Assembly (NCBI RefSeq): GCF_003339845.1
Contig: NZ_PPTR01000014.1
Location: forward strand, 1-64,000
Source of the DNA: Gordonibacter sp. 28C
GTDB lineage: Bacteria > Actinomycetota > Coriobacteriia > Coriobacteriales > Eggerthellaceae
Length of the DNA: 64,000 nt
Direction of reading: 5' to 3'
The notes below the pieces were generated by a model. It searched no databases. It saw nothing but the letters and a program-made list of their open reading frames with translations, and had not been told where the DNA came from. Below, piece by piece: positions 4,285-43,655 of the stretch. A program made the position numbers and the translations under genes. How positions within the stretch are numbered: position 1 is the first letter of the stretch; the number at the start of each line of letters is the position of its first letter.

Positions 4285-5229
4285 ATGGATCTTCAAGTGC
4301 TCAAGGAATACGTCGAATTCGCCAAGTATCTGAACTTCAGCGCGGCCGCCAGGATGCTCCACATGTCCCAGTCGAGCCTGAGCAAGCACATCGCCGACCT
4401 CGAGAAGAACCTGGGCTTCGTCCTCGTCTCGCGCAAAGGGACGCCGACGCTGACCCCCGCGGGGCAGATCTTCCTCGAAACCGTCGAGGACGTGCTGTTC
4501 CAACTGGAGAAAACGGTGGAGAAGTGCAAGGAGGTCCAGCACGGCCACGTCGGGCGCATCGTGATCCAGGACCCCCTGATAGACGCCACCATCGGCAACC
4601 AGAGCATCAACGCCTTCATGTACTTCTCCGAGCACTACCCCATGATCAGCATCGACCTCCACACCATACGGGGCCAGACCTCCCTGGAGGCCCTGAACGA
4701 CGGGACGGTGGACATCGCGTACTACATGGCCTACGGAGACGAGGCCGAGATCATCGAGGAGCGGGCGCGCCTGGGGGTCACCGCCTTCCCCATGCGCCGT
4801 CGGCGGTTCGCGGTGTGGATGAGGAGGGACCATCGGCTCACCAACTTGGAGGAGCTGCACATGGCCGACTTGCACGACGTCCCCTTCCTGATTCCGGCGG
4901 ACCGGCTGTTCGACGACTGGAGGGTGGTTCTCGAGCAGGCGAGCTTGGCACACGGGTTCTTCCCGAAGGTCAACCTCAAGGTCACGCCCACGATCAACGG
5001 CTACTTCGCCCTCAACACGAAGGACGGGGTCGTCATCTTGAGCGAGGCGTTCCTCCGGGATCCCCGCTTCCTGATGCGCGACGACATGGTCACCCACGAA
5101 CTGGCCGATCCCGATTGCTACTACACGCTTTTCATCGTCTACCGGGAGGACAACGAGAACCCCGCCCTGCCCCCGTTCGTCGAGCGCCTGAAGATGGCGG
5201 CGGCGGAAGAGGTCGACCAAGGCCTGTGA
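4285..5229 (+). CDS. LysR-family transcriptional regulator
   Basis: The 314-residue protein begins MDLQVLKEYVEF, followed by a winged helix-turn-helix (SAAARMLHMSQSSLSKHIADLE, residues about 18-39) and a periplasmic-binding-protein-like effector domain from about residue 90. The ATG at 4285 is chosen because LysR proteins normally start just before this helix and GAGGGGG precedes it; an in-frame ATG at 4267 is the alternative. It is divergent from the decarboxylase/transporter operon, which is its likely target, with an aromatic acid as likely effector (inference). Confidence 0.9.
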   Translation: MDLQVLKEYVEFAKYLNFSAAARMLHMSQSSLSKHIADLEKNLGFVLVSRKGTPTLTPAGQIFLETVEDVLFQLEKTVEKCKEVQHGHVGRIVIQDPLIDATIGNQSINAFMYFSEHYPMISIDLHTIRGQTSLEALNDGTVDIAYYMAYGDEAEIIEERARLGVTAFPMRRRRFAVWMRRDHRLTNLEELHMADLHDVPFLIPADRLFDDWRVVLEQASLAHGFFPKVNLKVTPTINGYFALNTKDGVVILSEAFLRDPRFLMRDDMVTHELADPDCYYTLFIVYREDNENPALPPFVERLKMAAAEEVDQGL

Positions 5230-42492: not shown

Positions 42493-42553
42493 CGGTGCGA
42501 CTTACCTCTAGGATGCGCCATGATCGCCGACCGACCGAGCCGGTGCGACTTAC
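42493..42553. repeat. 13-bp direct repeat CGGTGCGACTTAC
   Basis: Perfect copies at 42493-42505 and 42541-42553, 48 bp apart, in the 572-bp region between the binding-protein gene and comF. Possibly paired regulator sites; no gene is supported in 42349-42770. Confidence 0.5.
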
Positions 42554-42772: not shown

Positions 42773-42904
42773 CAAGGTTGCGGTGGCGGGCGCGCAAGGC
42801 TCGCGCGGCCGACGAGCAAGGTCCGCGCGGTTTTCGCGCAAGATCCGTGCAAGGTTCGCGCGACGCGGCGACGGTCGGAATACGGTCGGCGGGCAAGGTT
42901 GCGG
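42773..42904. repeat. Array of twelve degenerate 11-mers (CAAGGTTCGCG-type) before comF
   Basis: Cut into 11-base units from 42773, the sequence reads CAAGGTTGCGG, TGGCGGGCGCG, CAAGGCTCGCG, CGGCCGACGAG, CAAGGTCCGCG, CGGTTTTCGCG, CAAGATCCGTG, CAAGGTTCGCG, CGACGCGGCGA, CGGTCGGAATA, CGGTCGGCGGG, CAAGGTTGCGG. Every CAAGG/CAAGA lies at a multiple of 11 bp from the first. Units begin with C(A/G)(A/G)G and often end CGCG. The 11-bp period is not a multiple of three, so it is not a coding repeat. It runs directly into the comF promoter region. Confidence 0.7.
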
Positions 42905-42920
42905 CGCTATGCTCGAAGGC

Positions 42921-43655
42921 ATGTCCTTCCTTGTCGAAAGAGCGCACGTGTACGCCGCCGGCGCGGCCGAGGCCTTGGCCGAAACGCTGTGGCCGACCCG
43001 CTGCGCTGTGTGCGACGCGCCCGGGGAGGTGCTGTGCGGCTCTTGCCTGCGCGCCCTGCCCTATCTGGACTGGTGGCGCGCCTGCCCGAGATGCGGGGCC
43101 CCGTTCGGGCGCGTGCAGTGCAGCGAGTGCAACCCCGTGACGCTTTCGCGCGCGGGTCGGGACGGCGTGCCCTTCGACGGGTGCGCGAGCGCCGTCACGT
43201 TCGAGGAGGATGCCGCCCGCATCGTGCGCGCGTACAAGGACCAGGGGGAGCGCCGTCTGTCCGAGTCCATGGCCCTGCTCATGGCTCGCGCCTGCCCGCC
43301 CACCTGGGAGGCCGACGCAGTGGCATTCGTGCCGGCCTCGTCCGCCGCAAGGCGGCGACGCGGATTCGACCATGCGGAGCTGCTGGCGCAGGGCGCGGCG
43401 CGGCGTCTCGGCCTGCCGTGCACGTCGCCGCTCGCCCGCCCCCGCACCCGCGACCAGCGCTCGCTGTCGCGCCGGGCGCGCCTGGACAACACGGCCGGCC
43501 GCTTCGAGGCCCTGCCGGGGGCCACCGTGCCCGAGCGCGTGCTGCTGGTGGACGACGTGTGCACCACGGGCGCCACGCTGTTCGACGCCACCGACGCCCT
43601 GCGCCGCGCCGGCGCCGAACGCGTGTGGTGCCTCACCTTCGCCCGCGTTTGGTAG
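42921..43655 (+). CDS. comF: ComF-family phosphoribosyltransferase-like protein
   Basis: The 244-residue protein has an N-terminal double zinc ribbon (CAVCDAPGEVLCGSC, CPRCGAPFGRVQCSEC). A PRTase domain follows with VRAYKDQGERRLS, FVPASSAARRRRGFDHAELLA and the phosphoribosyl-pyrophosphate loop VLLVDDVCTTGATL. ComF is needed for DNA uptake in competent bacteria; elsewhere its role is unclear. The start is ATG 42921 or 42909; TATGCT at 42908-42913 could be a -10 that makes the 42921 ATG leaderless. No other competence gene is nearby. Confidence 0.9.
   Translation: MSFLVERAHVYAAGAAEALAETLWPTRCAVCDAPGEVLCGSCLRALPYLDWWRACPRCGAPFGRVQCSECNPVTLSRAGRDGVPFDGCASAVTFEEDAARIVRAYKDQGERRLSESMALLMARACPPTWEADAVAFVPASSAARRRRGFDHAELLAQGAARRLGLPCTSPLARPRTRDQRSLSRRARLDNTAGRFEALPGATVPERVLLVDDVCTTGATLFDATDALRRAGAERVWCLTFARVW

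Follow-up and report, generated by a model that had tools for sequence, protein, structure and literature searches.

Immediately upstream of comF in Gordonibacter sp. 28C, degenerate 11-base units follow one another in tandem, raising the question of what such an array does at the head of a DNA-uptake gene. The window, that is, the whole stretch of DNA analysed (64,000 nucleotides), corresponds to C6:1-64000 of the genome (G000; 3.86 Mb in 32 contigs). The elements of the locus are read as follows.

42773..42904, + strand: putative operator array of twelve 11-bp units of two kinds (CAAGGTTCGCG-like and CGGTTTCGCGA-like), from the sequence, the period-11 statistics and the register in orthologous promoters
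42861..42904, + strand: promoter-proximal core CGACGCGGCGA CGGTCGGAATA CGGTCGGCGGG CAAGGTTGCGG, common to the dispersed sites, from the alignment of the genome copies
42893..42899, + strand: last heptamer GCAAGGT, 8 bp 5' of the -10, from the conservation of GNAAGGT-N8-TANNNT
42908..42913, + strand: -10-like element TATGCT, from the sequence and the conservation of TANNNT at the same position across sites
42921..43655, + strand: comF (comFC), 244 aa, ATG at 42921, from TIGR00201 and the Pfam phosphoribosyltransferase and zinc-ribbon domains

The units are contiguous, with CAAGGTTGCGG TGGCGGGCGCG CAAGGCTCGCG CGGCCGACGAG CAAGGTCCGCG CGGTTTTCGCG forming the first half from 42773, and CAAGATCCGTG CAAGGTTCGCG CGACGCGGCGA CGGTCGGAATA CGGTCGGCGGG CAAGGTTGCGG the second half to 42904. 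CAAGG or CAAGA starts at 42773, 42795, 42817, 42839, 42850 and 42894, all in a single phase with spacings of 22, 22, 22, 11 and 44. The column identity of 42773-42904 is 0.448 at period 11, as compared to 0.27-0.30 at periods that are not multiples of 11, and the array has a period-11 z of 9.7 (null 0.301, sd 0.015; maximum of 20,000 shuffles at most 0.397), making it the strongest period-11 stretch of the 64 kb window. Tandem Repeats Finder (score 30) overlooks the array, because the degeneracy of the units is too high. The initial annotation had described twelve gapless 11-mers over 132 bp with CAAGG at multiples of 11, and these numbers are exact. Its argument that the period is incompatible with a coding repeat is also borne out, as the period of 11 and the intergenic position at all loci examined rule out such a repeat. 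The placement of all units on one helical face is correct only in part: the 11-bp phasing is real, but one turn of B-DNA takes 10.5 bp, which 11 bp slightly exceeds, and the alignment over twelve units is thus approximate.

The last unit runs directly into TATGCT, and the array is therefore part of the promoter. In the 3' direction, the array is followed by CGC, TATGCT (42908-42913), CGAAGGC and the ATG at 42921, the probable start codon of comF. Because the -10 ends 7 nt 5' of this ATG, the sequence predicts that the comF transcript is leaderless. The core at 42861..42904 covers the -35 region, and a consensus scan of the comF array promoter found neither a TTGACA-like hexamer nor a sigma-70-type site. 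The comF product matches TIGR00201 with an E value of 1.6e-19, under the curated cut-off of this NCBIfam family.

A raiA RNA (RF03072; 42386-42621, minus strand; 143.6 bits, gathering score 101.3) sits between the gene for a solute-binding protein and comF, reading away from comF. Its region contains an exact 13-bp direct repeat, CGGTGCGACTTAC, at 42493-42505 and 42541-42553, 48 bp apart. Except for this RNA on the other strand, Rfam detected no structured RNA at the comF array locus. The array is unlikely to control this RNA, which reads away from it and is equipped with a -10-like element of its own, TAAACT, at a distance of more than 100 bp from the array.

A nucleotide search of the genome revealed six further copies of the array, and the aligned copies have in common an ordered series of units that ends at a -10-like box. 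The sequence-only profile R1, built from six copies (its seeds include comF, recA and rpsF-ssb-rpsR), returned 16 sites at E < 1e-3 and one extra at 0.004 in the 3.86 Mb, for a total of about 17. The search for other 11-mer arrays that the initial annotation had proposed thus yields about 16 further ones. All of the sites examined are intergenic and in 11-bp register, with a length of about 8-15 units, and with few exceptions they have the same orientation as the gene that follows. Two registers exist: at some loci, among them comEA, dprA and tad, the final two units are offset by one base from those upstream. ORF calling with Pfam and NCBIfam identified the following genes, each with an array upstream.

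L046: comEA-comEC, unseeded
L047: yraN-comM(yifB)-dprA, unseeded
L050: tad genes cpaB-tadZ-cpaF, unseeded
L038: recA, seed locus
L041: rpsF-ssb-rpsR, seed locus
L048: DUF559 nuclease, unseeded
L045: Gp49/HigB-HTH toxin-antitoxin pair
L052: HI1420-type antidote
L040: SpaA-like surface protein
L049: ECF sigma factor
L051: NAD(P)HX-dehydratase-like gene

Toxin-antitoxin genes are also among the loci that profile R1 reached without seeding. As a rough inference that assumes about 2,000 transcription units, the chance of finding comEA-EC, comM-dprA and tad among ten random unseeded sites is about 1e-7. A common promoter element thus precedes comEA-comEC, comF, dprA, recA, ssb and pilus genes, the composition expected of a competence regulon, and the roughly 17 matching promoters before nearly all of the DNA-uptake and recombination genes point to a common, so far undescribed control system. 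In the ComK and ComX regulons of Bacillota, one regulator likewise governs comEA/EC, comF, dprA, recA, ssb and pilus genes; the gene set is alike, whereas the operators and the regulator are unrelated. Unlike those regulons, the array regulon contains a Tad/Flp pilus, as in Micrococcus luteus, where Tad/Flp pili are required for transformation (PMC4322843). The ECF sigma factor at L049 is ruled out as the regulator, as it is absent from the array loci of relatives.

Profile R1 has 21, 14, 12 and 6 matches in four other Gordonibacter genomes, where the arrays stand before the same orthologues. The comF promoters of the five species all keep an unbroken 11-bp register beside the -10 while many bases differ, with about 12-14 units in four of the five species and fewer in the most distant. 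Random divergence in close relatives, with loss of phase, had been named as evidence against a functional array; we observed the opposite, with the register preserved in the four other Gordonibacter as the units diverge. Cooperative protein binding along the helically phased array and control of comF, both suggested by the initial annotation, are supported by the abutment of the array on the -10, the register kept in four other species and the same arrangement before other DNA-uptake operons.

The comEA upstream regions of 60 genomes, taken by the position of comEC and without reference to any motif, extend the pattern beyond Gordonibacter. Period-11 z values of 18.7, 14.6, 13.1, 12.0, 9.9, 9.5, 8.6, 8.2, 8.0, 7.3 and 7.1 were obtained before comEA in eleven Eggerthellaceae genomes of seven genera, and within this 60-genome set no long array precedes comEA in other families. 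In a genome of a second genus (G007), the units of the comEA array read CTGGATCCGCG, and a two-unit pattern derived from them has 108 matches, as compared to 16 for the reversed control. Clusters of these matches precede comEA, comF (66% identity), recA (92%), rpsF-ssb (90%), yraN-comM-dprA (66-72%) and tad (59-72%), as well as DUF559, toxin-antitoxin genes and a SpaA-like protein. As the gene set and the architecture are the same and the unit is different, the regulon and its architecture are older than the unit sequence. This drift of the unit also leaves profile R1 mostly blind in other genera; in a family-wide count, the G007 pattern is enriched over the reversed control in many genera and uninformative where the unit has drifted. 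Judging by sequence comparison, we hold with high confidence that the array is real, that it is the operator and promoter of comF and that it belongs to a conserved DNA-uptake regulon.

Could the arrays instead be a dispersed REP- or MITE-like repeat, or a DNA-uptake sequence, without any regulatory role? The copies are indeed dispersed, and a 59-bp promoter-proximal stretch is 86% identical between two loci. However, the arrays precede the same orthologues across species and genera, with a diverging sequence and a constant register and -10, and orthologous promoters that keep the register and not the sequence rule out a dispersed mobile repeat. DNA-uptake sequences occur in hundreds or more copies per genome, within genes too, and the arrays, nearly all co-oriented with the next gene, are too few for this role; we regard such a reading as very improbable. 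The uptake-related or nucleoid-binding element considered in the initial annotation is likewise not borne out by about 17 sites in 3.86 Mb, all of those examined being intergenic and nearly all co-oriented with the following gene. The intrinsic curvature that it had also considered would find some basis in the 11-bp periodicity, but the array has no phased A-tracts, its longest A run is 2 and its units are GC-rich, while the promoter geometry is fixed at many loci. Accordingly, we give practically no credence to intrinsic curvature or to a site for a nucleoid protein near comF.

The geometry of the promoters resembles that of the targets of SARP regulators, in which direct repeats recur at intervals of 11 or 22 bp and 8 bp separate the 3' one from the -10; AfsR protomers lie side by side on 11-bp repeats and contact sigma region 4 (PMC10936776). 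At comF, the repeats are 11 or 22 bp apart, the 3' repeat is 8 bp from the -10, and units cover a -35 region in which the consensus scan found no good -35 hexamer. GNAAGGT-N8-TANNNT is present in 52 of 68 Gordonibacter sites, and the spacing is 8 bp in 52 of the 53 in which it could be measured, with one other spacing seen, a count that is partly built in, as profile R1 spans these positions. Of 15 G007 sites, found by an independent route, 13 have a spacing of 8 bp to the -10 and two a spacing of 9 bp; the 8-bp figure rests on the choice of GCAAGGT as the heptamer. PimR binds heptamers, CGGCAAG, with 4-bp spacers as cooperative monomers (PMC5930380), and this heptamer resembles the GGCAAGG of the comF array. 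The SARP operators of Streptomyces (the afs box of AfsR, PimR, DnrI and ActII-ORF4) thus share with the array the 11-bp direct repeats, the 8 bp to the -10 and the coverage of the -35 region, and cooperative monomers are a feature of SARP systems. On the other hand, the arrays have about 8-15 units (12 at comF), as compared to 2-3 in known SARP operators, and they stand before many operons, for DNA uptake and in Coriobacteriia, whereas the known SARP systems serve antibiotic synthesis. By this analogy, a SARP is the probable regulator of the arrays.

The genome encodes a candidate, an 872-aa protein (L253:4220-6838; contig C5, about 19.2-21.8 kb) with a Walker-A-like GFGKS near its N-terminus and a SARP region at its C-terminus. 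The BTAD domain was detected at residues 727-826 of an 834-aa frame (E 3e-13), and EmbR aligns with the entire C-terminal region (6.5e-14) and AfsR with its BTAD end (5.5e-11). An OmpR-like winged helix accompanies the BTAD domain, as derived from the EmbR alignment and not called by Pfam. The SARP domain is C-terminal, unlike that of the known SARPs AfsR and PimR, in which an N-terminal position is typical but not defining. In 21 of 24 relatives, the BTAD search returned exactly one protein each; across the order, 141 of 149 Coriobacteriales genomes encode a BTAD protein, 140 of them in a single copy. The SARP gene is located 5' of secA, and a toxin-antitoxin module driven by an array is about 3.4 kb away; this arrangement recurs in G007 (3-4 kb). 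The gene's own promoter is sigma-70-like and carries no array, with no sign of autoregulation through one. The one genome that lacks comEC (G006) also lacks the SARP, as do 7 of the 148 comEC-bearing genomes; this co-occurrence across the 149 genomes is weak evidence, because both genes are near-universal. None of the eight SARP-less genomes has a period-11 array adjoining comEA; in one of them (G027), a period-11 score of 4.6 lies far upstream of comEA, where period 17 is stronger. Many SARP-bearing genomes, of several families, are without a long array before comEA.

The same DNA-uptake regulon could also be read by an OmpR/PhoB-type response regulator, bound in tandem and head to tail on 7-bp motifs with 4-bp spacers. 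The array can be divided into such motifs and spacers, and the period alone cannot separate OmpR/PhoB from SARP operators. Operators of the former family (M. tuberculosis PhoP, the pho box of PhoB) are similar 7+4 bp tandem direct repeats occupied by head-to-tail oligomers, and M. tuberculosis PhoP, with a strict 4-bp spacer, has a higher affinity for three or four consecutive motifs than for two (PMC4832192). In Streptomyces, the sites of PhoP overlap those of AfsR (PMC10972967). The array at L045 is directly 3' of a PhoP/PhoR-like gene pair. However, the literature ascribes the 8-bp spacing to the -10 specifically to SARPs (PMC10936776), and no single conserved response regulator is tied to the arrays, the regulator survey having covered BTAD proteins. 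We consider a binder of this type unlikely. Quite improbable is a binder from another family, be it BldC-like, a ParR-like ribbon-helix-helix protein or an unknown one. A ParR-like binder would agree with the 11-bp repeats of R1 parC, but ParR sites are partition loci and not promoters with a fixed -10. BldC forms head-to-tail filaments on a variable number of direct repeats, in which its targets resemble the comF array, but these repeats are 9 bp long with AATT cores (PMC5859096); as the array has a period of 11 and is GC-rich, a BldC operator is ruled out.

The array is thus likely to be the operator of a positively controlled comF promoter in a DNA-uptake and recombination regulon of Gordonibacter and other Eggerthellaceae, activated by a SARP; we infer both the activation and the competence of the cells. 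The most likely activator, the conserved, single-copy STAND-like ATPase/SARP protein (872 aa), would bind the 11-bp repeats, its protomers associating head to tail and cooperatively. The protomer on the final repeat, which is separated from the -10 by 8 bp, would substitute for the -35 contact and recruit or adapt sigma region 4 of RNA polymerase in the manner of AfsR, while the extended arrays upstream, of about 8-15 units, probably increase the occupancy or give a switch-like response. More tentatively, and in our view with less than even probability, the SARP-ATPase could be the competence master regulator of the Eggerthellaceae, which nucleates at the -10-proximal repeat and spreads over 8-15 repeats in an all-or-none manner, controlling toxin-antitoxin modules and small hydrophobic peptides together with the uptake genes, with growth arrest during uptake. 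The switch-like filament and the coupling to growth arrest are speculative.

The regulation of competence in Actinomycetota is an open question: in Micrococcus luteus, a 2026 study states that the upstream signals and the regulatory cascade of competence remain to be identified (PMC12849477). Our literature search, with subscription papers outside its scope, found no study of competence or transformation in Eggerthella, Gordonibacter or Coriobacteriia. For a family of bacteria common in the human gut, the present analysis offers a concrete putative operator, a regulon and a single, conserved protein as the candidate regulator. It would widen the role of SARP regulators from antibiotic synthesis, where they are known, to DNA uptake, with arrays of unusual length, and it predicts joint regulation of DNA uptake and toxin-antitoxin modules.

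Toxin-antitoxin modules (HigBA/Gp49, HI1420, BrnTA) are found repeatedly downstream of arrays and next to the SARP gene (L045, L052, L164, L167, L170, L185, L191, L194, L208, L358, L364 and L365), which suggests competence-linked growth arrest or addiction. Array promoters with a -10 of TAGGAT, TAAGAT or TAGAAT precede recurring small ORFs with hydrophobic products of about 36-54 aa, such as MTDLVLISAVLQLIASAVYLAAVILERLPARKDREP, directly 3' of the arrays at L042, L043, L044, L162, L165, L166, L168, L180, L182, L195 and L196. These ORFs have no match in NCBIfam and are possibly type I toxins or signalling peptides. A T-box was considered for the TAGGAT class and rejected, as it has no Rfam support and the loci hold the small ORFs instead; across 14 array loci, Rfam returned one tRNA and nothing else.

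Between the array promoter and recA (L038, about 5090-5188), there is another promoter, which carries a LexA-like box (CAAACATTTGTACG), and a similar stretch is found in G007 (L361); recA seems to be under dual SOS and array control. Finally, L039:4974-5056 holds an array without a -10 (CCGAGAGGG), whose orthologue in another genome (G001, L164) precedes a BrnTA-like pair, and the L039 array looks like a relic left after loss of the module.
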